DNA of 64,000 nt from Croceibacterium aestuarii (GTDB lineage Bacteria > Pseudomonadota > Alphaproteobacteria > Sphingomonadales > Sphingomonadaceae). The stretch covers positions 62,001 to 126,000 of the forward strand of contig NZ_CP131039.1 of the NCBI RefSeq assembly GCF_030657335.1, in the 5' to 3' direction. Positions 1-11,039 of the stretch are shown piece after piece. Position 1 is the first letter of the stretch; every line of letters begins with the position of its first letter. The position numbers were made by a program, and so were the translations under genes. The notes under the pieces are model-generated. The model ran no database searches and was not told the origin of the DNA. It saw only the letters and a list, made by a program, of their open reading frames with translations.

Positions 1-384
1 ATCATCTTCGCCTGCACCACGGTCACCACGATTCTCACGCCGCTCGCTCCGAGTGGCGAGATCGCGCTGAGCCTCATGGCGCTGGGCGTGTTCTTCGGGC
101 TCGCCGGGGCGCCGGCGCAGAACGCCGCGATCCAGCGCATCGCGCCCAACGAGATGCGCGGGCAGGTCAGCGCCTTCTACCTGTTCATGTTCACCTTCTT
201 CGGCGCGCTCGGCAGCTTCGTTATCGGCTGGGTCAGCACCTACGTGGTCGGCGACGAGAGCCAGGTCTGGAAGGCGATCCTCATCACGGCGATCGTGTTC
301 CTGCCGACCGCGACCTTCTTCATGTGGCGCGGCATCCGCCCCTACCGCGAGGAGGTGGAGCGGCTCGAAGCGCTCGGACTGTGA
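1..384 (+). CDS. MFS transporter, C-terminal fragment (5' end outside window)
   Basis: The reading frame is open from the first base, so only the last 127 or so residues are visible. They contain three hydrophobic spans separated by short loops. A conserved MFS-type loop (AAIQRIAPNEMRGQVSAFY) precedes the penultimate helices, and the tail is charged and cytoplasmic. This fits helices 10-12 of a major facilitator superfamily permease. Its position just upstream of the aromatic-catabolism genes suggests uptake of an aromatic acid, but the substrate cannot be read from the sequence. Confidence 0.8.
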   Translation: MIFACTTVTTILTPLAPSGEIALSLMALGVFFGLAGAPAQNAAIQRIAPNEMRGQVSAFYLFMFTFFGALGSFVIGWVSTYVVGDESQVWKAILITAIVFLPTATFFMWRGIRPYREEVERLEALGL

Positions 385-464: not shown

Positions 465-1223
465 ATGTCTGATACGAGCGTGGAATCGCTTGCCGCCAAG
501 GTTGACGAGCTGGAGCAGCGCCTGACCCGGCGCGAGGACGAAATCGACGTCCGCAACCTGCAGTACCTCTACGGCTACCTGATCGACAAATGCATGTACG
601 ACCAAGTCGTCGACCTGTTCACCGACGATGCCGAAGTGCGCTTCTTCGGCGGCGTGTGGAAGGGCAAGGAAGGCGTTCGCCGGCTCTATGTCGACCGCTT
701 CCGCAAGCGCTTCACCCACAACAACAACGGCCCGATCGACGGCTTCCTGCTCGACCATCCGCAGCTGCAGACGATCGTTACCATCGAACCCGACGGCAAA
801 ACCGCCCGGCTACGCGGCCGCAGCACGATGCAGGCCGGCCGGCACAAGGATTACGAAGGCGACGCGCCGCACCTCAAGAAGCGCCAGTGGTGGGAAGGCG
901 GCCTCTACGAGAACACCTACAAGAAGGGCGAGGACGGCAAGTGGCGCATCCACGTCCTCAATTACTTCCCGCACTGGCACGCCAATTTCGAGGACGGCTG
1001 GGCCAACACCGATCCGGAGTTCACCCCGTTCATCCGCGAGACCTACCCGGCCGATCCCGCCGGGCCCGACGAGCTGATCGACGAGCACTGGCTATGGCCG
1101 GTCCACAAGCTGCTGCCGTTCCACATGAAGCACCCGATCACGGGCGAGGAAATGGTCGCGGAGCGCTGGGAAGGCGACGCCAAGCGCGACGCCGAGCGGG
1201 CTGCCGCGAAGGCGAGGGGCTGA
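465..1223 (+). CDS. NTF2/SnoaL-like fold protein of the catabolic cluster (possible LdpA-type lyase)
   Basis: A 252-residue protein. The ATG at 465 is chosen because ggagag lies 6 bases upstream; an in-frame ATG at 432 has no ribosome binding site. The N-terminus (residues 4-25) is a short coiled coil, followed by a SnoaL/NTF2-like cone with the usual LYGYLIDKCMYDQVVDLF helix and 'FTDDAEVRFFGG' strand. The long C-terminal tail is rich in Trp, His and Pro. NTF2-fold proteins of about this size occur in sphingomonad aromatic-degradation clusters; one, LdpA, is a cofactor-free deformylase of lignin diarylpropanes. Membership of the fold is well supported. The reaction is inference from context, and a scaffold or isomerase role is equally possible. 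Confidence 0.7.
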   Translation: MSDTSVESLAAKVDELEQRLTRREDEIDVRNLQYLYGYLIDKCMYDQVVDLFTDDAEVRFFGGVWKGKEGVRRLYVDRFRKRFTHNNNGPIDGFLLDHPQLQTIVTIEPDGKTARLRGRSTMQAGRHKDYEGDAPHLKKRQWWEGGLYENTYKKGEDGKWRIHVLNYFPHWHANFEDGWANTDPEFTPFIRETYPADPAGPDELIDEHWLWPVHKLLPFHMKHPITGEEMVAERWEGDAKRDAERAAAKARG

Positions 1224-1231
1224 GAATAAAT

Positions 1232-1314
1232 CGTCGTCCCAGCGAAAGCTGGGACCGCTGTCCACCAAGCGAAGCGCCAAAGGCGAACGATCCCAGCTTT
1301 CGCTGGGATGACGG
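1232..1314. repeat. pair of REP-like palindromes in inverted orientation
   Basis: Two copies of a small palindrome face each other. The left copy, cgtcgtcccagcgaaagctg and following bases, forms the stem tcccagc-gaaa-gctggga. The right copy forms tcccagc-tttc-gctggga and ends in tgacgg. The copies are separated by about 36 bases, and the whole element can also fold as one long hairpin. It sits between two co-directional genes, as repetitive extragenic palindromes often do in sphingomonads. It could act as a transcription attenuator or mRNA stabiliser between the NTF2-like gene and the dehydrogenase gene. Confidence 0.75.
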
Positions 1315-1323
1315 AGTTAGGAA

Positions 1324-2754
1324 ATGACCGACTACCCCTCCCTCCACATGATCATCAACGGCAAGAAGGTCTCCGGCGGCGGCCGGCGGACCTTCGACGT
1401 GATCAACCCGGTGACCGGCGAAGCCATCGGCGCGCTGCCGCTGGCCAGCGCCGAGGATCTCGACAAGGCGCTCGAGGTGGCTGCCGAGGGGTTCCGCATC
1501 TGGCGCCGCTCGACCCCGCAGGAACGCGCTGCGGTGCTCAGCGGGGCGGCGCGGCTGATGCTCGAGCGCGCCGACGACATGGCCCGCATCGCCACGATGG
1601 AGCAGGGCAAGCCCTTCGCCGAGGCGAAGATCGAGCTGATGATGAACGTCGGCCTGTTCAACTTCTACGCCGGCGAGGCCAGCCGGCTCTACGGCCGCGA
1701 ACTGGTCCGCCCGGTCGGCCAGCGTTCGACGGTGCGCTGGGAGCCGGTCGGCCCCGTCGCCGCCTTCGCCCCGTGGAACTTCCCACTCGGCAATCCCGGC
1801 CGCAAGCTCGGCGCGCCGATCGCCGCAGGGTGTTCGGTGATCCTCAAGGCCGCCGAGGAAACCCCGGCCAGCGCGCTTGGCGTGCTGCAGTGCCTGCTCG
1901 ACGCCGGACTGCCGCCACAGGTCGCGCAGGCCGTGTTCGGCGTGCCCGACGAGGTCAGCCGCCACCTGCTCGGCTCCAAGGTGATCCGCAAGCTCAGCTT
2001 CACCGGCTCGACCGTCGTCGGAAAGCACCTGATGAAGCTCGCCGCCGACAACATGCTGCGCACGACCATGGAGCTGGGCGGCCACGGCCCGGTGCTGGTG
2101 TTCGACGACGTCGACGTCGAAACGGTCCTCGATACCGCGGTCATGGGCAAGTACCGCAACTGCGGCCAGGTCTGCGTCAGCCCCACCCGCTTCATCGTCC
2201 AGGAAGGCGTGTTCGAGAAGTTCCGCGACGGCTTCGCCCAGCGCGCCAAGGCGGTGAACGTCGGCGATGGCCTCAAGGACGGCACCCAGATGGGCCCGAT
2301 GGCCAATGCCCGCCGTCCCGAGGCGATGGAGCGGCTGATCGGCAACGCCCGCGACAAGGGCGCGACGGTCGACACAGGCGGCAAGCGCATCGGCAATCAA
2401 GGGTTCTTCTACGAGCCCACCGTGCTCAGCCAGATCCCGCTCGACGCCGACATCATGAGCGAGGAGCCCTTCGGCCCGGTCGCGCTGATCAATCCCTACG
2501 CCAGCGAAGAGGACATGATCGCCGAAGCTAACCGCGTCGAATACGGCCTCGCCGGCTATGCCTGGACCGACGACGTCAAGCGCCAGCGGCGCCTGGCCGA
2601 TGCCATCGAGACCGGCATGGTCGGGATCAACAGCCACATGATCGGCGGCGCGGACAGCCCGTTCGGCGGCGTGAAGTGGTCGGGCCACGGCAGCGAAGAC
2701 GGGCCCGAGGGCGTCCGCGCCTGCATGGTCGTCAAGGCCATCCACGAAGGCTGA
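1324..2754 (+). CDS. NAD(P)-dependent aldehyde dehydrogenase
   Basis: A 476-residue cytoplasmic aldehyde dehydrogenase of normal length for the superfamily. It oxidises an aldehyde to the carboxylic acid with NAD or NADP. The Rossmann-fold 'FTGSTVVGK' loop is present. The general base glutamate is E250 in 'MELGGHG' and the catalytic cysteine is C284 in 'NCGQVCVSPTRF'. Overall it resembles the succinate-semialdehyde / aryl-aldehyde branch. It ends 10 bases before the LigW-like gene, so the two are probably co-transcribed. In context an aryl aldehyde such as a vanillin- or formyl-ferulate-type compound is the likely substrate; that part is inference. Confidence 0.92.
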   Translation: MTDYPSLHMIINGKKVSGGGRRTFDVINPVTGEAIGALPLASAEDLDKALEVAAEGFRIWRRSTPQERAAVLSGAARLMLERADDMARIATMEQGKPFAEAKIELMMNVGLFNFYAGEASRLYGRELVRPVGQRSTVRWEPVGPVAAFAPWNFPLGNPGRKLGAPIAAGCSVILKAAEETPASALGVLQCLLDAGLPPQVAQAVFGVPDEVSRHLLGSKVIRKLSFTGSTVVGKHLMKLAADNMLRTTMELGGHGPVLVFDDVDVETVLDTAVMGKYRNCGQVCVSPTRFIVQEGVFEKFRDGFAQRAKAVNVGDGLKDGTQMGPMANARRPEAMERLIGNARDKGATVDTGGKRIGNQGFFYEPTVLSQIPLDADIMSEEPFGPVALINPYASEEDMIAEANRVEYGLAGYAWTDDVKRQRRLADAIETGMVGINSHMIGGADSPFGGVKWSGHGSEDGPEGVRACMVVKAIHEG

Positions 2755-2764
2755 ACAACGGGAA

Positions 2765-3826
2765 ATGACGATGACACACGAACTCAAGACCGGCGGCGAC
2801 CGCGGCTACCTGCGCATTGCCACCGAAGAAGCTTTCGCCACCCAGGAACAGCTCGACGCGATCATGCGGCTGGTTCGCGAAGGCCGCGCCGACGAAGGCA
2901 CCGTCAGCCTGTGGGGCTTCTATGGCACCAGCGCCAGCGAGCGCACGACCTTCATCCGCGAGCGCCTGCTCGACCTCGGGCCGCTGCGCCTGCAGGCGAT
3001 GGACGATGCCGGGATCGACAAGGCGGTGCTCGCGCTGACCAGCCCCGGCACGCAGTCGATGCACGACCCCGAAGAGGCCAAGCGCATCGCCCGCAACGCC
3101 AACGACCAGCTCAAGGACGCCTGCGAGAAGCATCCCGACCGCTTCTACGGCATGATCGCCGTCGCTCCGCTCGATCCCGAGTGGTCGGCCGAGGAACTCA
3201 GGCGCGGCAAGGAAGAGCTCGGCTTCCACGGCGTGCAGATCAACAGCCACACCCACGGCCACTACCTCGACGAAGAGCAGTTCGACCCGATCCTGCGCGC
3301 CTGCGCCGATCTCGACCTGCCGCTCTACATCCACCCGCAGGGCCCGCCCGACGGGATGATCGGCACGATGGTCGAGGCCGGGCTCGACGGCGCGGTGTTC
3401 GGCTTCGGAGTCGAGACGGCCTTCCACGGGCTGCGCCTGCTGACCACCGGCGTGTTCGACCGCTACCCCGGGCTGCAGATGATGCTCGGCCATGGCTGCG
3501 AGGCGATCCCCTACTGGATCTACCGCCACGATTACATGCACCGCGCCGGCGTGCGCAGCCAGCGCTATCCGCGCCTCAAGCCGCTGCAGCACGACCTGTT
3601 CCACTATTTGCGCAACAACGTGCTGGCCACCAACAGCGGCATGGCCTTCGAGCCCGCGGTCAAGCTGATGATCGAGGTGATGGGGGAGGACCGCGTGATG
3701 TACGCGATGGACTATCCCTATCAGTACCTGCCCGAAGAGGTGGTGTGGATGGACGACATGGACATTACGCCCGAACAGAAGAAGAAGTTCTTCCAGACAA
3801 ATGCGGAGCGCTGGTTCAAGCTCTGA
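2765..3826 (+). CDS. ligW: LigW-like amidohydrolase, 5-carboxyvanillate-type non-oxidative decarboxylase
   Basis: A 353-residue amidohydrolase-superfamily protein. Compared from memory with LigW of Sphingobium SYK-6, it matches along its full length, including 'IATEEAFAT', 'VSLWGFY', 'GVQINSHT', 'MGEDRVMYAMDYPYQY' and the C-terminal 'KKFFQTNAERWFKL'. The metal and catalytic residues known in LigW (E19, H188, D314) line up with E21, H190 and D316 here, a constant offset of two. LigW enzymes use a divalent metal to remove CO2 from 5-carboxyvanillate-type phenolic acids without oxygen. The preceding aldehyde dehydrogenase could make such an acid from a formyl group. The family is very secure; the exact substrate is not. 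Confidence 0.9.
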   Translation: MTMTHELKTGGDRGYLRIATEEAFATQEQLDAIMRLVREGRADEGTVSLWGFYGTSASERTTFIRERLLDLGPLRLQAMDDAGIDKAVLALTSPGTQSMHDPEEAKRIARNANDQLKDACEKHPDRFYGMIAVAPLDPEWSAEELRRGKEELGFHGVQINSHTHGHYLDEEQFDPILRACADLDLPLYIHPQGPPDGMIGTMVEAGLDGAVFGFGVETAFHGLRLLTTGVFDRYPGLQMMLGHGCEAIPYWIYRHDYMHRAGVRSQRYPRLKPLQHDLFHYLRNNVLATNSGMAFEPAVKLMIEVMGEDRVMYAMDYPYQYLPEEVVWMDDMDITPEQKKKFFQTNAERWFKL

Positions 3827-3857
3827 AGCAGGCTTAGCGGCGAGGGGAGAGACGCTG

Positions 3858-5480
3858 GTGACGACGACTGTTGAGGGCATCAAGCCCGCCGCGCGGGTCA
3901 GCCGTGCCGGCTGGTATGCGCTGTTTCTCGTTTCCTCGGCGCAGGGACTGAGCCTGCTCGACCGGCAGATCCTGTCGATCCTCGCCCCCTCGATCCGCGC
4001 CGATCTCGGCATCGGCGATGCGGAGCTCGGGCTGCTTTACGGCACCGTGTTCGCGCTATTCTATGCGCTGTTCTCGCTGCCGCTCGGACGATTGGTCGAC
4101 GGCTGGATTCGCACCCGGCTGCTGTCGATCTGCATCCTCGGCTGGTCCGTCTTCGCTGGGCTTTCGGCCTTTGCCGGCAGCTTCGCTGTCCTCGCGATCT
4201 CCCGCCTGGGCGTGGGTATCGGCGAAGGCGCGGCCCAGCCGGGCGCCAACTCGGTCATTTTCGATACCTTCCCGCGCAGCCGGCGCGGCACCGCGATGGC
4301 GGCGATGGGCATCGCCACCGCGCTCGGTCTCGGCCTGTCGATGGCGCTGGGCGGGTTCGTCGCGCAGTGGTGGGACGAAGCCTATCCGGGCGGAGGACCG
4401 GGCGGGTTTTCCGGCTGGCAGTTCGCCTTCCTCGTCGCCGCGGCGCCGGGCCTGGTCCTCGCATGGGCGCTCTACCGCATGAAAGAGCCGGTGCGCGGCG
4501 GTGTGGACGGCATTCCGGCTCCGCCCGATCCGCATCCCTTCAAGGCCAGCGCCGCCGTGCTCGGCTCGGTCACTCCGCTGGCCAACTGGTATTCGCTGTG
4601 GCGGCGCGATGCCGGGGCGAAGCAGTGGATCATCAACCTCGTCGGCCTCGCTGCGATCGCCGCGTTCTGCTGGGTCATGACCGGCGTGACCCAGGCCTTC
4701 AGCCCGCGCCCGACGCTCGACGTCCTCGGGGTGGCGGTAAACCCGCACGCGCTGCAGTGGTTCGTGGTCGGCTTCGGCGCATTCGTGATCCTGAACCTGT
4801 TCCAGTCGCTCAAGCTGACGGACAGGTCGACGTACAACGTCATGCTCTCGCCTTCGCTTCTGCTGCTGTTCGTCGTCGGCGGCCTGCAGACCTCGATCAA
4901 CTACGGAGTCATGGGCTTCACCCCGAGTTTCCTGATCCGCGAATACGGGATGGATCAGTCGACCACCGGATTGCAGTTCGGCCTGCTCGCAGCCGCGCTC
5001 GGCGTCATCGGCCCGCTGGCGGCCGGGCCGCTGAGCGACCTCCTCACCGTCCGGCTGGGCGCCAGGGGCCGGGTCTGGCTGACCTTCGCTTCGCTCGGCA
5101 TCTCGCCGTTCCTCGGGATCTGGACCTACAACGCGCCCGACCCGATGAGCTTCTATCTGCGCTTCTCGGCCTACAGCCTGGTGCTGACCCTGTGGCTGCC
5201 GCCGATCTACTCGCTCTACTACGATCTCGTGCTGCCGCGGATGCGCGGAATGGCGAGCAGCACCTACATCATCATCTCGACGCTGCTGGGGCTCGGCATG
5301 GGTCCCTATTTCGTCGGTATCGTATCCGATCGAAACGGCGGCGACCTGGGGCAGGCGATCATTTCGATCAACGTCGTCGCGCCGGTCATCGCCGTCATCC
5401 TGCTTTATGTTTTGACCCGCGTTCAGCGTGACGAGGATTCGGTCCTCGCCCGCGCCCGGGCCGGAGGAGAACCCGTCTGA
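3858..5480 (+). CDS. MFS transporter of the catabolic cluster
   Basis: A polytopic inner-membrane protein of 540 residues, longer than a typical 12-helix MFS permease because of an extended central region. The N-terminal block ('LSLLDRQILSILAPSIR', then a 'GRLVDG' loop between helices 2 and 3) is typical of the spinster-like MFS group common in sphingomonads. The GTG at 3858 is used because ggggagag lies 6 bases upstream; an earlier in-frame ATG would overlap the decarboxylase gene. The stop codon overlaps the start of the next gene as TGATG, so translation is coupled to the ThDP enzyme. It probably imports the aromatic substrate. Confidence 0.88.
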   Translation: MTTTVEGIKPAARVSRAGWYALFLVSSAQGLSLLDRQILSILAPSIRADLGIGDAELGLLYGTVFALFYALFSLPLGRLVDGWIRTRLLSICILGWSVFAGLSAFAGSFAVLAISRLGVGIGEGAAQPGANSVIFDTFPRSRRGTAMAAMGIATALGLGLSMALGGFVAQWWDEAYPGGGPGGFSGWQFAFLVAAAPGLVLAWALYRMKEPVRGGVDGIPAPPDPHPFKASAAVLGSVTPLANWYSLWRRDAGAKQWIINLVGLAAIAAFCWVMTGVTQAFSPRPTLDVLGVAVNPHALQWFVVGFGAFVILNLFQSLKLTDRSTYNVMLSPSLLLLFVVGGLQTSINYGVMGFTPSFLIREYGMDQSTTGLQFGLLAAALGVIGPLAAGPLSDLLTVRLGARGRVWLTFASLGISPFLGIWTYNAPDPMSFYLRFSAYSLVLTLWLPPIYSLYYDLVLPRMRGMASSTYIIISTLLGLGMGPYFVGIVSDRNGGDLGQAIISINVVAPVIAVILLYVLTRVQRDEDSVLARARAGGEPV

Positions 5481-7018
5481 TGCCGACCGTTCGCGATGCC
5501 GCATTCGCCGTGTTCGAACACTTCGGGGTCGACCGCCTGTTCGGCAATCCCGGCAGCACCGAGCTGCCGATGCTCAAGGGCCTGCCCTTCCCCTATGTCA
5601 TGGGGCTCAACGAGGCGGTGGTGGTCGGTATGGCCGACGGCTTCGCCCGTTCCGCGCGCAAGCCCGCGCTGGTCAACCTGCACAGCGCGGCGGGCACCGG
5701 GCATTCGCTCGGCAACCTGTTCACCGCGTGGAAGAACAATGCGCCCGTCGTGGTCACCGCGGGGCAGCAGGCGCGCTCGATTCTGCCGTTCGACCCGTTT
5801 CTCTATGCCGAGCGGCCGACCGAATTCCCGCGCCCCTACGTCAAGTATTCGGTCGAGCCCGCGCGCGCCGAAGACGTGCCGCAGGCGCTGATCCGCGCCT
5901 TCGTCACCGCGCTGACCCCGCCGATGGGCCCGGTGTTCGTCTCGATACCGGTCGACGACTGGGACCGCGAATGCGCAATCCCCGCCCTGCCCGACCTGAC
6001 TCTGGTCTCGGTCCCGTCGGCGACGGGAATCGAGCGCATTGCCTCGATCATCGACGGCTGCGAGAAGCCTGCGCTGGTGTTCGGCACCGGGGTCGCCAAT
6101 GCCGGCGGCTGGTGTCACGCCATTCGCCTCGCCGAGCGCTGCGGAGCGAGCGTGTGGACCGCGCCCTACAACGCGCGCGAGACGTTTCCCGAGGACCACC
6201 CGCAGTTCGCCGGCTTCCTCCCCGCCTGGCGCGACCAGATACGCGATCTGCTCGATCCATTCGACGCCATCGTCGTCGTCGGCGCGCCGGTCTTTACCTA
6301 CCATGTCGAGGGCCGCGGCCCGCACTGGCCCGAGCACGCCCGGCTCATGGCGCTGTCCGACGACCCGCAGCACCTTGCCGCGATGCCCGGCGGCGGCGGG
6401 GTGCTGGGCGACGTGGAGGACGGGCTCGCGCAACTCGCCGAGCGGGTCAACAAGCGCGAGTTCACCGGCAAGAAGCACGAACTGAAGAAGCCGGCGCGGG
6501 AAATGACCGCCGCCTACGTCCTCAGCCGCGTCGCCGAACTGCGGCCCAGGGACGCCGTCATCGTCGAGGAGGCCCCGACCGCCCGCGGGCCCGAGCACGA
6601 TGTCCTGCCGATCACCCGCGAGGGCGGGTTCTATTCCTGCGCCAGCGGCGGCCTCGGCTATTCGCTGCCGGGCAGCATCGGCGTGGCGATGGGCCAGCAG
6701 GACAAGGTCCTCGCGATCCTCGGCGACGGCGCGGCGATGTACACCATCCAGGGCCTGTTCGCCGCACAGCTCGAAGACGCGAACGTCAGCTTCCTGATCA
6801 TGAACAATTCGGCCTACGCGGCGCTGACCGGGTTTTCGGGCGAGTTCGGCATGAACCACGTGCCGGGCTGCGACCTCACGGGGCTCGACTTCGTCAAGCT
6901 CGCCAATGGGCACGGGGTCGAGGCGAAGCGGGTCGAGGCGGTCGAAGACCTCGATGCCGCGCTCGAATGGAGCTTCGCCGCCAAGGGGCCGACGCTGCTC
7001 GACATCCGGATCGCCTAG
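5480..7018 (+). CDS. ThDP-dependent decarboxylase, benzoylformate decarboxylase-like
   Basis: A 512-residue thiamine-diphosphate enzyme. It has the N-terminal pyrimidine-binding domain with the activating glutamate E45 ('LNEAVVVGMADGFA'), a central domain, and a C-terminal pyrophosphate domain with 'ILGDGAAMYTIQ' continuing to 'NN'. The residues that define benzoylformate decarboxylase all have counterparts: S26 in 'FGNPGSTELP', H68 in 'LHSAAGTGHS' and H275 in 'FTYHVEG'. MdlC-type enzymes convert an arylglyoxylate to the aryl aldehyde and CO2, which would feed the aldehyde dehydrogenase upstream. Carboligase (benzaldehyde lyase-like) activity or an acetolactate-synthase-like role cannot be excluded. 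Confidence 0.85.
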   Translation: MPTVRDAAFAVFEHFGVDRLFGNPGSTELPMLKGLPFPYVMGLNEAVVVGMADGFARSARKPALVNLHSAAGTGHSLGNLFTAWKNNAPVVVTAGQQARSILPFDPFLYAERPTEFPRPYVKYSVEPARAEDVPQALIRAFVTALTPPMGPVFVSIPVDDWDRECAIPALPDLTLVSVPSATGIERIASIIDGCEKPALVFGTGVANAGGWCHAIRLAERCGASVWTAPYNARETFPEDHPQFAGFLPAWRDQIRDLLDPFDAIVVVGAPVFTYHVEGRGPHWPEHARLMALSDDPQHLAAMPGGGGVLGDVEDGLAQLAERVNKREFTGKKHELKKPAREMTAAYVLSRVAELRPRDAVIVEEAPTARGPEHDVLPITREGGFYSCASGGLGYSLPGSIGVAMGQQDKVLAILGDGAAMYTIQGLFAAQLEDANVSFLIMNNSAYAALTGFSGEFGMNHVPGCDLTGLDFVKLANGHGVEAKRVEAVEDLDAALEWSFAAKGPTLLDIRIA

Positions 7019-7117
7019 GGATTTCGGTCGCTCTGCCGCAGCGTGGGAGCGTACCGGCCCGGAGGTCGGAACCGACGCTCGCTCCGAACACTGCACCGGC
7101 ATGAGGATATCGTCTCG

Positions 7118-7582
7118 ATGAGCGCCGACGTTCTGGCGGTCGTGCAGTCCCTTTTCACCAGCGAATTCGCGCTGGCCTGCGCCTTTGCGGCCTTGACGGC
7201 CACACTGGTGGCCTTGTGCGTGCCCGGCACGATCATCCCGGTGTCGGTGTCTTCGGGCGCGCTGCTCGGCGGCGTGGTCGGCGGCGCGGCGGTGCTTGCG
7301 GGCGTGCTCGTCGGCAGCCAGGTCCTGTTCCTCGCTTCGCGCCACCTGCTGCGCGAGCGGGTCAGGGCGCGCTGGGGCGAACGGCTGGCGCGGTTCGAGG
7401 ATCACTTCGCGCGGCGCGGCTTTCTTTATGTCGTCGGGCTTCGGGTCGCGGGCGTGCCGCATTTCCTCGTCACCGCAGGCTCTGCGCTCTCGCCGGTCCG
7501 CAGCCGCACCTTCCTCGCCGCGACGCTGCTCGGCTTTCTGCCGGTAATCGGATTGACCTCGACCGCCGGCTCGCTGTTTTAG
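7118..7582 (+). CDS. VTT-domain (DedA/TVP38-like) membrane protein
   Basis: A 154-residue integral membrane protein with about four hydrophobic segments and the VTT/SNARE-associated pattern: a glycine-rich re-entrant loop ('SGALLGGVVGG'), a basic stretch with 'RFEDHFARRGFLYVVGLRV', then 'PHFLVTAGSAL'. Family members work in membrane lipid transport and envelope homeostasis. The start at 7118 puts a gagga-like site about 10 bases upstream; an earlier in-frame start at 7043 would add an unrelated basic extension. It is the last plus-strand gene of the run, about 100 bases after the ThDP gene, and may not be functionally linked to it. Confidence 0.75.
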   Translation: MSADVLAVVQSLFTSEFALACAFAALTATLVALCVPGTIIPVSVSSGALLGGVVGGAAVLAGVLVGSQVLFLASRHLLRERVRARWGERLARFEDHFARRGFLYVVGLRVAGVPHFLVTAGSALSPVRSRTFLAATLLGFLPVIGLTSTAGSLF

Positions 7583-7748
7583 GGCTGTCCTACAAGGCCC
7601 GGTTGCCGCCATGCTCCGCGCGGCTCTTTCGAATCGTCGATCACCCGCTCAGCTGGAGGCAGATTTTTCCCGACCGCACCGCATCTGTCACCCGGCAATC
7701 CCGCCAATAACCTACGTTATATCAAATTCTTAGTGCACACTTGCTGGG

Positions 7749-7761
7749 TTACAGGGTGTAA
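7749..7761. promoter_or_regulatory. ttaca-ggg-tgtaa dyad in a convergent intergenic region
   Basis: A perfect 5-bp dyad of the type seen in TetR-family operators lies in the 248-base space (7583-7830) between two converging genes. An AT-richer stretch (7711-7735) precedes it. No start codon with a ribosome binding site follows on either strand, so its function is unclear. The rest of this intergenic space shows nothing recognisable. Confidence 0.2.
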
Positions 7762-7830
7762 ACATGGTAACCTTGGCCCAGCCTCGACGATCGCGATGCA
7801 GACCGAATCGATCGCCCAGGGCGGCGAGCG

Positions 7831-8814
7831 TCAGCGCTTCGACGCCGCACGGTCGGCGCGCGATCCCTCGATCACCGCGCGGATCGAGCTGTCGCCTTCC
7901 TGGCAGGCATATTCGTAGAGCTTGTAGTCCTCGTCGCGCTGCCGCTCGAGTTTGGCCGTCCAGGGCGCCGTGTACACGGCCGGATCTTCGTAGGTCACTC
8001 GATAGGCCAAGCGGTCCGGCCCCGCGAGGCTGAAGCGCTCCACCACCTTCGCATCGGGCCCGACCGGGATGACCGCGTTCTCGCGCCCCGGGATCGGCCC
8101 TGCCGCACGGCCGAATCGTTTGGTCGTCGCGCTGTCGCCCGACACGATGTTTGTGGTCACGACGACCAGCGTGCCGCCCTCCCAATGCCCGCGGCTGTAG
8201 CCATGCCACGCACGAACCTTCCGGGGCCAGGGTGCGCTTCGCTCAAGCCGAATTATCCGCGTGCCGAACGTCTCCATCTGCAGCGCCACATAGCCTGGCG
8301 CCTGGAATATCCGTAGCCCGTTGTTGTAGGGCTGCGGCAGCATGACCGCCGGGAAGCCGCGCGTGATGCAGCGTTCGAACGCGTCGAAATCGCTGACCCA
8401 GTCGAATACCGGCGGGCCCACGCGGGTAGAGCGCGCGCCTTCGGAAAGCGCCCTCGCCGCCTTGGTAAGCGGCGGGAGGCGGCCGTCGGGCGGATCGACG
8501 ATCAGCGAACTGCGGTGCGCGAAAGGTGTCGAGAGCAGCCACTCGGAGAGGCCCTTGGTACCACCTTCGGCCGGCCTGTATTCCGCATCCGATTGCTCCG
8601 CGGCGGCCAGTCTTTCGGCAAACTCGGCGTCGGTCAGTTCCGCCCGGTCGCCAAACTCTTGCGGACGCTCGAGGCGAATTCGGGCATCGTTGACCATCTG
8701 CACCGGCCATGTGCCGGTAAGGTCGGGATCGCCCCATTCGGTGCGAGGCGCTTCGAAATCGCTATTGCCGGCCGCCAAGAACGCCGCGAGCGCAACCGGG
8801 ACGGCCCGTGTCAC
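7831..8814 (-). CDS. secreted protein of the 'DPDLTGTW' family, unknown function
   Basis: A 327-residue protein starting at a GTG that overlaps the stop of the upstream DUF3237 gene as GTGA. It has an N-terminal signal-like segment ('VPVALAAFLAAGNS') and then the motif 'PDLTGTWPVQMVND'. A C-terminal half rich in 'GHWEGGTLVVVTTNI' and 'DRLAYRVTYEDPAVY' suggests an all-beta, lipocalin-like domain. The related secreted protein at 53039-53800 shares the pattern 'HWEGDELVIDTTHL'. Such proteins are common in sphingomonads near catabolic genes but have no established role. It could bind hydrophobic substrates in the periplasm; that is speculation. Confidence 0.72.
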   Translation of the reverse strand: MTRAVPVALAAFLAAGNSDFEAPRTEWGDPDLTGTWPVQMVNDARIRLERPQEFGDRAELTDAEFAERLAAAEQSDAEYRPAEGGTKGLSEWLLSTPFAHRSSLIVDPPDGRLPPLTKAARALSEGARSTRVGPPVFDWVSDFDAFERCITRGFPAVMLPQPYNNGLRIFQAPGYVALQMETFGTRIIRLERSAPWPRKVRAWHGYSRGHWEGGTLVVVTTNIVSGDSATTKRFGRAAGPIPGRENAVIPVGPDAKVVERFSLAGPDRLAYRVTYEDPAVYTAPWTAKLERQRDEDYKLYEYACQEGDSSIRAVIEGSRADRAASKR

Positions 8815-9272
8815 AGCACCCGCCAGACCCACAGCTTGATCGAACTCGCATAGCGCGCGCCCGAGCAGATGAAGATCGAGCGATTGAGCCAATCGTAGGG
8901 GCCTTCGGGGGCGATGAATTCGGGGACCGTTCGGAAATAGTACTCGTCGGGTTCGACCGGCTCGCCCCGGCGCAGCCGATCCATGACCTCGGGCGGACCG
9001 TGGCGCAGGCCCTTGTTGCGGATCTGGATCAGCGCGCCGTCGTCGGTTTCGATCGCATAGATCGCGTCGGCCACGGTCACTCCGTCGGGCCGGGTCAGCT
9101 GCCAGTCGGCCGAATTGCCCATCAGCTTGCCGGAAATCTTCGGACCCTTGACGTAGCCGCCGGCCTTGATCGGGATGATCCGCCGGGTTCCGTCGACCAC
9201 CGGCCCAATCTCGCGCGGGGTCTCCAGCTCGCCGCCGGCTTCGTAGACAAACTCAAGTTCAGGCTTGATCAA
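8811..9272 (-). CDS. DUF3237 protein (possible cofactor-free decarboxylase)
   Basis: About 153 residues forming one complete DUF3237 beta-barrel domain. Hallmarks are 'RRIIPIKAGGYVKGPKISG', 'ADWQLTRPDGVTVADA', 'TDDGALIQIRNKGLRHGP' and 'EYYFRTVPEF'. The TTG at 9272 is preferred because ggagagag lies 3 bases before it; a GTG at 9287 is an alternative. It is divergent from the GMC oxidoreductase gene and translationally coupled to the secreted gene downstream. To my recollection the sphingomonad decarboxylases PhcF and PhcG, which act on a lignin phenylcoumaran acid, belong to this family. That makes a decarboxylase role attractive but unproven here. Confidence 0.85.
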   Translation of the reverse strand: MIKPELEFVYEAGGELETPREIGPVVDGTRRIIPIKAGGYVKGPKISGKLMGNSADWQLTRPDGVTVADAIYAIETDDGALIQIRNKGLRHGPPEVMDRLRRGEPVEPDEYYFRTVPEFIAPEGPYDWLNRSIFICSGARYASSIKLWVWRVL

Positions 9273-9380
9273 GGGCTCTCTCCGCACGGTTTTCCGTGAC
9301 CCGGTGAGTGCACAATCCTAGGCTGAAATCCAAGCGAATCGCACCAATATTGCGTCCACGGGGCGCAGAAGGAGAGGAAA

Positions 9381-11039
9381 ATGGCGGCTGAACTCTACGC
9401 GGACTATGTCATCGTCGGTGCAGGCAGCGCCGGATGCGTGCTGGCGGCGCGGCTGAGCGAGAGCGGGACACACAAGGTGGTCCTGCTCGAGGCGGGCGGC
9501 GACGACCGGCCGCTCAAGGAGCCCGGCCAGTTCATGTCCAACCTGATGATCCAGACCCCGATCGGGTTCGGCAAGACGCTCAACGATCCCAAGGTCAACT
9601 GGCTCTACGATACCGAGGTCGACCACGGCACCGGCGACCGGCCGCACAAGTGGCCCAAGGGCAAGGTGCTCGGCGGCTCGAGTTCGATCAACGGGTTGCT
9701 CTACGTCCGCGGCCAGGCGGCCGATTACGACGGCTGGGCGCAGATGGGTGCGCGCGGGTGGAGCTGGGACGATGTCCTGCCCTACTTCAAGAAGGCGCAG
9801 AATCAGGAGCGCGGCGAGATCGACACCCACGGGGTGGGCGGCCCGCTCAACGTCTCCGACTTCCCGGAAAAGCACCCGATTTCCGCGGCGCTGATCGAGG
9901 CGTGCGAGGAATACGGCCTGCCCTACCGCGAGGACCTCAACAACGGCGATCAGGAAGGCGTCACCTGGTTCCAGCTCACTGCCAAGAAGGGCAAGCGCCA
10001 CTCGGCCGCCAACGCCTACCTCCACCCGGCGATGGGCCGCGAGAACCTGCTGGTCGAGACCCGCGCGATGACTACCCGGATCATCTTCGAGGGCAAGCGC
10101 GCGGTCGGCGTCGAGTTCATGCAGAACGGCGAGAAGCGCCGGGTCATGGCGGCGCGCGAAGTCATCCTCAGCGCCGGATCGGTCGAATCGCCCAAGCTGC
10201 TCGAGATCAGCGGTGTCGGTCAGGGCGAGTTGCTGCGCGAACTGGGCATTCCCGTGGTCCACGAGAGCAAGATGGTCGGCGAGAACCTGCAGGACCACGT
10301 GATGATCGGCTGCCAGGCGCGCCTCAAGGAGGACTGGCACTCGATCAACTATCGTTCGACCGGGCTCAACCTGGTCAAGGAGATCGCCAAGTACGGTATC
10401 ACCCGCACCGGCATCCTGAGCATGGCGGTGGCCCACGGCTGCGCTTTCGCCAAGACCCGGCCCGAGCTCGAGCACCCGGACATGCAGATCCACATGATGG
10501 CGGCGAGCATGGACCTCGAGGTCTTGGCGACGACCCAGGGGCTGCAGCTCGAAAAGGAGCCGGGCATGGCCAGCAACCCGTGCCAGCTGCGCCCGGAATC
10601 GCGCGGCAGCATCCACGCCCGCTCGCCCGACGGGATGGTCAATCCGAAGATCGTCCCGAACTACCTCTCCGACCCGATCGATCAGCAGATGGCGGTCGAA
10701 CAGCTCAAGGTCATTCGGGCGATCTGGAATCAGCCGGCAATCCGCCAATACATGAAGGACGCCGGCGACCCGTTCGGCGATACCGATCAGGCCATGTTCG
10801 AATATGCCAAGATGGCCTCGGCCACGGTCTACCATCCGGTCGGCACGGTCGCGATGGGGGACGAGCGCTACCCGGTCACGCCCGAGCTCAAGGTTCGCGG
10901 CGTCGAAGCACTGCGGGTCATCGACGCCAGCGTGTTCCCCAAGATCACCAGCGGCAACACCAACGCCCCGACGATCATGATCGCCGAAAAGGGCGCCGAG
11001 ATGATCCTCCAGGATGCGAAGGAATCGGTCGCGGCCTGA
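9381..11039 (+). CDS. GMC-family FAD-dependent alcohol oxidoreductase
   Basis: A 552-residue glucose-methanol-choline oxidoreductase of the usual length. The ADP-binding fold is N-terminal ('VIVGAGSAGCVLAARLSE'). GMC signature 1 is 'GKVLGGSSSINGLLYVRG' and signature 2 is 'VILSAGSVESPKLLEISG'. The C-terminal active site has the catalytic H485 ('VYHPVGTVAMG') and N528 in 'SGNTNAP'. A strong aggagaggaaa site precedes the ATG. Family members oxidise primary alcohols, including polyethylene glycol, choline and lignin-derived aryl alcohols. Next to a DUF3237 gene and near a LigW-like decarboxylase, an aryl-alcohol or dilignol side-chain oxidase is the most economical reading. Confidence 0.92.
   Translation: MAAELYADYVIVGAGSAGCVLAARLSESGTHKVVLLEAGGDDRPLKEPGQFMSNLMIQTPIGFGKTLNDPKVNWLYDTEVDHGTGDRPHKWPKGKVLGGSSSINGLLYVRGQAADYDGWAQMGARGWSWDDVLPYFKKAQNQERGEIDTHGVGGPLNVSDFPEKHPISAALIEACEEYGLPYREDLNNGDQEGVTWFQLTAKKGKRHSAANAYLHPAMGRENLLVETRAMTTRIIFEGKRAVGVEFMQNGEKRRVMAAREVILSAGSVESPKLLEISGVGQGELLRELGIPVVHESKMVGENLQDHVMIGCQARLKEDWHSINYRSTGLNLVKEIAKYGITRTGILSMAVAHGCAFAKTRPELEHPDMQIHMMAASMDLEVLATTQGLQLEKEPGMASNPCQLRPESRGSIHARSPDGMVNPKIVPNYLSDPIDQQMAVEQLKVIRAIWNQPAIRQYMKDAGDPFGDTDQAMFEYAKMASATVYHPVGTVAMGDERYPVTPELKVRGVEALRVIDASVFPKITSGNTNAPTIMIAEKGAEMILQDAKESVAA

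Follow-up and report, generated by a model that had tools for sequence, protein, structure and literature searches.

Do the genes packed into about 10.6 kb near the start of a 64,000-nucleotide stretch of the Croceibacterium aestuarii chromosome form one pathway for lignin dimers, and if so, of which type? The stretch, hereafter the window, comprises bases 62,001-126,000 of the complete 3.35 Mb chromosome (C1; NZ_CP131039.1). An initial annotation proposed a lignin-dimer catabolic cluster of phenylcoumaran or diarylpropane type, and Pfam and NCBIfam scans, by which gene families were assigned, found the protein types that it named in their places; a gene without family assignment (hypX) and a major facilitator superfamily transporter gene (MFS1, ending at 384) are additional to its list. 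On the evidence of orthology, gene order and catalytic residues, this is very probably the form that the beta-5 (phenylcoumaran) catabolic cluster of sphingomonads takes in Croceibacterium; the reactions of PcfL, FerD, LigW, LsdD, HpvZ and the benzoylformate decarboxylase (BFD) are taken from published relatives. The pathway exists, and its kind has been described before; the parts are known and their combination is new. Some novelty lies in the thiamine diphosphate (ThDP) enzyme, which joins two known lignin routes throughout a lineage.

The beta-5 core of the cluster

PcfL is the phenylcoumaran gamma-formaldehyde lyase whose gene lies near ferD, ligW and lsdD in Novosphingobium aromaticivorans (Metz et al. 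2024, PMC11323797). The NTF2-fold protein of the window is 72% identical over 250 residues to an N. subterraneum NTF2 protein encoded in a ferD-ligW-lsdD cluster (L084). N. aromaticivorans itself is not among the loci analysed; L084 stands for its characterised cluster because its lignostilbene dioxygenase (LSD) and its LigW are near-identical to PDB entries 5j53 and 4inf, respectively, the former being Saro_0802/NOV1 (PMC8191317). The window protein therefore exceeds the 50% identity at 70% coverage by which Metz et al. recognise PcfL, as measured against this proxy and not Saro_0796 itself. A tree of 38 rows, drawn from 24 chosen cluster loci and others rather than from all 80 loci analysed (see below) and omitting three long-branch rows, splits 26 PcfL-type from 8 LdpA-type rows with 100/100 support; when the three rows are included the support for the PcfL fork is 93/99, and the fork is drawn open. 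By identity and tree position, the window protein is of PcfL type and not of LdpA type.

FerD is 77% identical to the protein at the ferD place of strain SYK-6 (L203) and 78% identical to that of N. subterraneum. LigW shares 70% of its residues with the protein of the SYK-6 ligW2 place and 67% with N. subterraneum LigW, so that both enzymes lie above the 50% identity used for the PcfL-type beta-5 pathway. The best PDB matches of LigW are 4inf (540 bits) and 4qs5, 5-carboxyvanillate decarboxylase, in agreement with its initial assignment as a LigW-type decarboxylase, and the Glu, His and Asp that we take to be its metal ligands are kept in the alignment.

The species genomes were scanned with an NTF2-family alignment, and 80 of 201 confirmed loci were analysed. 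Downstream sequence reaches 4.5 kb or more in 72 of these loci, and in 70 of them the genes for NTF2, aldehyde dehydrogenase (ALDH) and LigW stand in this order on one strand; the core arrangement is therefore not due to chance, and the phenylcoumaran part of the original proposal is borne out by PcfL, FerD and LigW orthologs in the known order. Gene presence was scored at 45% identity in stretches that end about 10 kb downstream and may miss the last genes. On this basis MFS1 was found in 73/78 loci with enough upstream sequence and the second transporter gene, MFS2, in 64/68 with enough sequence; the 67 eligible loci gave LsdD-like genes in 45, DUF3237 in 29, BFD in 20, hypX in 4 and GMC in 2.

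The route predicted from these genes would start with unspecific dehydrogenases, which would oxidise dehydrodiconiferyl alcohol (DCA) at its side-chain alcohol and so yield DCA-C. The PcfL-type step would convert DCA-C to a stilbene and formaldehyde, and an LsdD ortholog encoded outside the window would cleave the stilbene to vanillin and 5-formylferulate. FerD would oxidise the latter to 5-carboxyferulate, LigW would decarboxylate this to ferulate, and ferulate would enter the route through FerB, LigM and protocatechuate 4,5-cleavage.

Six LSDs are encoded in the genome. One of them (C1:326527-328278) is 75% identical to SYK-6 LsdD, again above the 50% level of the PcfL-type pathway, and it alone retains the full set of four residues that reportedly contact DCA-S in LSD4 (Phe59, Tyr101, Lys134 and Ser283; PMC8191317). 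Its gene is divergent from an MFS gene, and behind the latter lies one for a glutathione-dependent formaldehyde dehydrogenase that passes the curated cut-off (L142, C1:326527-331138). Of the ferulate-route genes looked for (FerB, LigM, LigA, LigB, LigK and LigU), FerB, LigA, LigK and LigU pass curated cut-offs and a LigB-type subunit is present, all elsewhere in the genome; LigM also passes its cut-off and is 76% identical to that of SYK-6.

All four enzymes of the N. aromaticivorans PcfL-FerD-LigW-LsdD pathway were reported for 82 organisms (Metz et al., PMC11323797). As judged through L084 and the 80 loci, C. aestuarii has the same PcfL, FerD and LigW orthologs in the same order with MFS genes beside them, but LsdD lies elsewhere, and BFD, a VTT-domain protein, hypX and an HpvZ-type GMC oxidoreductase are added.

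GMC and DUF3237 proteins in the light of SYK-6

The ferD-ligW2-hpvZ-lsdD region of SYK-6 (SLG_12800-12860; L203) served for comparison. The genome used is taken as that of SYK-6, one of its LSDs being identical over 489 residues to 6xm6, which was deposited for LSD4, SLG_12860 (PMC8191317). The gene order is a LigM-like gene, genes at the MetF and LigH places, a SnoaL protein, MFS1, FerD, LigW2, MFS2, GMC, a luciferase-like gene, DUF3237 and LsdD, in agreement with the locus tags in Table 1 of PMC12997858. These tags, like the PhcC/D and HpvZ places, were assigned through gene order and not from an annotated record; PhcF/G are taken as two DUF3237 genes in tandem, with an LSD and two GMC genes nearby, and their tags are inferred. 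The series from MFS1 to LsdD matches the set found in C. aestuarii, with 70-77% identity for FerD, LigW2, GMC and DUF3237, whereas this region is without PcfL and BFD and has the luciferase-like gene, PhcCDFG being used elsewhere.

The initial annotation had likened the GMC protein to PhcC/PhcD and the DUF3237 protein to PhcF/PhcG, and neither comparison holds. The window GMC protein is only 39% and 40% identical to the two SYK-6 proteins at the phcC/phcD places, short of 50%. Over 550 residues, by contrast, it is 70% identical to the product of the gene two behind ligW2, at the HpvZ place (SLG_12830). By orthology and gene order it is HpvZ-type, on the beta-O-4 side, and would act on the beta-O-4 intermediate beta-hydroxypropiovanillone (beta-HPV); the HpvZ reaction, beta-HPV to vanilloyl acetaldehyde, is predicted for it. 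Low identity alone does not exclude a shared function, since HpvY, 39% identical to HpvZ, oxidises beta-HPV as HpvZ does (PMC11837543).

The DUF3237 protein has its domain in common with PhcF and PhcG but is 33% and 38% identical to the tandem pair at the phcF/phcG places, compared with 71% to the SYK-6 copy beside LsdD. A 32-row tree places it in a 17-row clade of LsdD-cluster copies (support 99/95), with PhcF/G on the other side. As a tentative assignment, its likeliest role is that of a decarboxylase of a related dimer acid. The expectation that the NTF2, GMC and DUF3237 proteins would fall among lignin enzymes is thus borne out for the first (PcfL) and the second (HpvZ, on the beta-O-4 side); the DUF3237 clade is one without a known tested member.

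The genome has a further group of lignin type (L146, C1:3190001-3210000), which comprises an LSD, a hypX relative, a DUF3237 protein 72% identical to a SYK-6 copy, and a GMC protein 54% identical to one PhcC/D-place protein.

Two other pathways have to be weighed against a PcfL-type beta-5 route. If the cluster served the diarylpropane (beta-1) pathway, the NTF2 protein would act as LdpA on erythro-diguaiacylpropanediol. It is of the same fold and family, and its best PDB matches are 8abt, 8abu and 8abv, which we take for LdpA, since the SYK-6 protein at the ldpA place starts with the same residues as 8abv. The conserved His of the LLDH motif is common to the window protein and LdpA (8abt, 8abv), and His98 aligns with the residue that differs between 8abt and 8abu. 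However, the window protein is 38% identical to SYK-6 LdpA (44% is the reported PcfL-LdpA identity; PMC11323797) and falls outside the LdpA clade, on the separate 100/100 branch. FerD and LigW, encoded next to it, belong to the beta-5 route, and a separate LdpA ortholog is encoded elsewhere in the genome, 70% identical to that of SYK-6 and adjoining protocatechuate 4,5-cleavage genes. A beta-1 role is very unlikely, and of the initial claim of an LdpA-like, diarylpropane-type deformylase only the NTF2 deformylase type stands. In an SYK-6-type route, GMC (PhcC/D) would convert DCA-C to DCA-CC and DUF3237 (PhcF/G) would decarboxylate DCA-CC, with PcfL as an addition. The right protein families are indeed side by side, the Phc route is predicted to be widespread among Erythrobacteraceae outside Novosphingobium (Metz et al., PMC11323797), and one set of 20 BFD neighbourhoods (described below) contains PcfL in 1, DUF3237 in 17 and GMC in 14; other GMC proteins of the genome are 54% and 50% identical to one PhcC/D protein, so that a Phc-like oxidase encoded elsewhere is possible. 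The identities given above nevertheless favour the HpvZ place and the LsdD-neighbour copy over PhcC/D and PhcF/G, no other DUF3237 protein of the genome is more than 44% identical to PhcF/G, and SYK-6 itself has both sets side by side. This route is improbable for the window.

The benzoylformate-decarboxylase-type enzyme

The ThDP enzyme scores 632 bits against the NCBIfam benzoylformate decarboxylase model (NF005485; cut-off 493 bits). It keeps Ser26, Glu47, His70 and His281 (Pseudomonas putida numbering), presumably catalytic in BFD, as do 29/29 sphingomonad rows, and by cut-off and residues alike it is an intact enzyme of the BFD type. Ala460, Leu461 and Phe464 of P. putida BFD (1bfd) are also found in the window protein, but Trp463 is Gly, Thr377 is Pro and Phe397 is Ser, and because of these replacements its pocket differs from that of 1bfd; Trp463 is replaced in all 28 sphingomonad rows reaching that position. 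P. fluorescens Pf-5 BFD (6qsi) gives 333 bits to the window enzyme, compared with 370 for the best BFD structure. A benzaldehyde-lyase-like enzyme was considered and provisionally rejected, the BFD His pair being intact.

BFD copies were found at E <=1e-150 in 50 of 397 family genomes, and 34 of them reach at least 63% identity. Neighbourhoods were compared in three sets: 20 of the 34 copies, omitting four others and ten whose cluster was already among the loci analysed, and 9 and 21 PcfL-bearing loci, these latter two sets overlapping. BFD immediately follows MFS2, on its strand, in 18/20, 9/9 and 19/21 neighbourhoods, which rules out a chance neighbour and confirms the earlier placing of the ThDP enzyme within the cluster. 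The set of 20 includes FerD in 18, LigW and DUF3237 in 17 each, LsdD in 16, GMC in 14 and the glutathione-dependent formaldehyde dehydrogenase in 13, with PcfL in only 1; the two exceptions (L271 and L274) have no cluster gene besides BFD at 45% identity. Nine sampled BFD-bearing rows form one clade in the NTF2 tree (100/99). In Erythrobacteraceae, BFD thus belongs regularly to the cluster, whether or not PcfL is present.

More distant copies have other surroundings. One, 58-60% identical, immediately follows a LigW gene in Sphingomonas sp. AR_OL41 (L161, L229), without FerD, PcfL or LsdD beside it. Copies about 50% identical are paired with an LSD in 3/19 short loci and have ring-hydroxylating dioxygenase genes nearby in 6/14 neighbourhoods; a distinct lineage at this identity adjoins same-strand dioxygenase subunit genes in Novosphingobium, Sphingomonas and a relative (L156, L157, L158, L287, L290, L291 and L295; alpha subunit by Pfam in L158 only).

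The bzf cluster of Pseudomonas LLC-1 comprises BFD, an MFS transporter, an aldehyde dehydrogenase, a porin and a LysR regulator, and according to work cited with it the P. fluorescens enzyme acts on benzoylformate and 4-hydroxybenzoylformate, aryl-C2 lignin fragments, and not on C3 compounds (PMC7760541). BFD of Rhodococcus jostii RHA1 converts 4-hydroxybenzoylformate and 4-hydroxy-3-methoxybenzoylformate to 4-hydroxybenzaldehyde and vanillin, and its pathway has been proposed to carry flux from lignin (PMC9811514). As in the LLC-1 module, BFD, MFS transporter and ALDH genes stand together in the window, where the MFS2 stop codon shares one base with the BFD start and FerD is two genes before MFS2, the comparison being one of gene make-up. 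Unlike that module, the window genes are joined to PcfL, FerD and LigW, and no LysR regulator or porin was seen beside BFD, though no dedicated regulator search was made. Given this make-up, an aryl-C2 module built into the cluster is the most likely reading of MFS2-BFD, and we lean slightly towards hydroxylated or methoxylated benzoylformates as the substrates. MFS2 would take up these lignin fragments and BFD would decarboxylate them to vanillin or 4-hydroxybenzaldehyde, which ALDHs such as FerD would then oxidise. No paper placing BFD in a PcfL-FerD-LigW cluster was found among the entries listed in searches of the open-access literature, as judged by title or abstract start, with 12 of 2,982 and 10 of 65 entries listed in two of them, and a word search of PMC11323797 returned neither benzoylformate nor thiamine.

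Two further roles for BFD were weighed against an aryl-C2 module. Engineered P. putida BFD can couple formaldehyde, and the window enzyme might similarly act as a carboligase, consuming formaldehyde released by PcfL from the same operon. Against this, 17/18 MFS2-BFD neighbourhoods of one set are without PcfL in the fetched stretch, and the genome has the glutathione-dependent formaldehyde dehydrogenase beside LsdD; formaldehyde carboligation was rejected as highly improbable, since BFD persists without PcfL. BFD might instead be a step of the dimer route, converting a 5-carboxylated or other dimer-derived guaiacyl glyoxylate to an aldehyde for FerD and LigW. It occurs together with both in 17/20 neighbourhoods, BFD-LSD pairs exist in 3/19 short loci, and 5-carboxyguaiacyl glyoxylate as a substrate would explain the BFD-LigW pair of AR_OL41. 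However, the published schemes examined contain no such intermediate, known BFDs act on aryl-C2 monomers (PMC7760541, PMC9811514), and BFD is absent from 47/67 PcfL loci with enough sequence, so that a dimer step is unlikely. It is equally doubtful that the Erythrobacteraceae enzyme removes CO2 from an aryl-alpha-keto acid of beta-5 or propiovanillone side chains to feed FerD and LigW.

Several points count against interpreting the whole group as a beta-5 cluster with an integrated BFD module. The LsdD ortholog is outside the cluster, 254 kb away, and orthology with PcfL (Saro_0796) depends on the proxy N. subterraneum protein. The HpvZ-type GMC protein means that beta-5 dimers are not all that the cluster serves, and only 2/67 PcfL loci have GMC within the fetched stretch. 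No glyoxylate intermediate occurs in the beta-5 or beta-O-4 published schemes examined, and the BFD module may belong to a neighbouring function rather than to these routes.

Gene arrangement and meaning

Seven plus-strand genes follow one another from MFS1 to the VTT-domain protein (Table 1), with gaps of 80, 100, 10, 31 and -1 bases and about 100 bases to the likely VTT start. On the minus strand, the likely start of hypX overlaps the DUF3237 stop codon by 4 bases, and the two are likely on one transcript; the GMC gene is divergent from this pair.

Table 1. Coordinates of the cluster genes in the window
Feature	Position	Strand	Basis
MFS transporter 1, 3' part (gene starts about 1 kb before the window, C1:60987)	1-384	+	PF07690
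PcfL ortholog, NTF2 fold (SnoaL_4), predicted phenylcoumaran gamma-formaldehyde lyase	465-1223	+	Pfam, identity, tree
FerD ortholog, predicted 5-formylferulate dehydrogenase (ALDH)	1324-2754	+	Pfam, identity
LigW/LigW2 ortholog, predicted 5-carboxyferulate / 5-carboxyvanillate decarboxylase (Amidohydro_2)	2765-3826	+	PDB matches, identity
MFS transporter 2, GTG start	3858-5480	+	Pfam
BFD-type ThDP enzyme	5480-7018	+	NCBIfam NF005485 above cut-off, residues
VTT-domain membrane protein	7067-7582, likelier start 7118	+	Pfam
hypX, no family assigned	7831 to about 8814	-	No Pfam match; 11 relatives aligned
DUF3237 protein, LsdD-neighbour clade, candidate decarboxylase	8811-9287	-	Pfam, tree, identity
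GMC oxidoreductase, HpvZ-type (beta-hydroxypropiovanillone oxidase type)	9381-11039	+	Pfam, SYK-6 identity and gene order

A gene similar to that of the VTT protein was found in 1/20, 0/9 and 0/21 BFD neighbourhoods, and this protein is probably not a core part of the cluster. For hypX, the predicted model (mean pLDDT 71.5) gave no reliable fold match in the PDB, the best having E 0.027; one of the aligned relatives is beside another LSD of the same genome, in L146. Just before the window, and divergent from MFS1, lies a gene for a second SnoaL_4 protein with a signal-peptide-like N-terminus (C1:60243-60941, minus strand; L005:16243-16941); similar genes occur in 17/20, 6/9 and 16/21 BFD neighbourhoods, and one in SYK-6 encodes a protein 45% identical.

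Relatives carry additional genes within the core. An FAD_binding_4 oxidase gene is present between ferD and ligW in some of them (e.g. L063:12372-13937; 4/20, 3/9 and 4/21), and the gene of an NmrA-type NAD(P)-binding protein between ligW and MFS2 (e.g. L067:13406-14260; 15/20, 6/9 and 7/21). The N. subterraneum cluster has a DUF2490 protein between ferD and ligW (L084:12318-12992), by order at the Saro_0798 place.

The core of the cluster extends the beta-5 pathway described in 2024 to Croceibacterium. The steady union of beta-5 genes with an aryl-C2-type BFD and the conserved DUF3237 clade suggest that the lignin-dimer pathways described so far are incomplete at two points. If true, a cluster that serves dimers and aryl-C2 compounds together would be a handy part for lignin funnelling.

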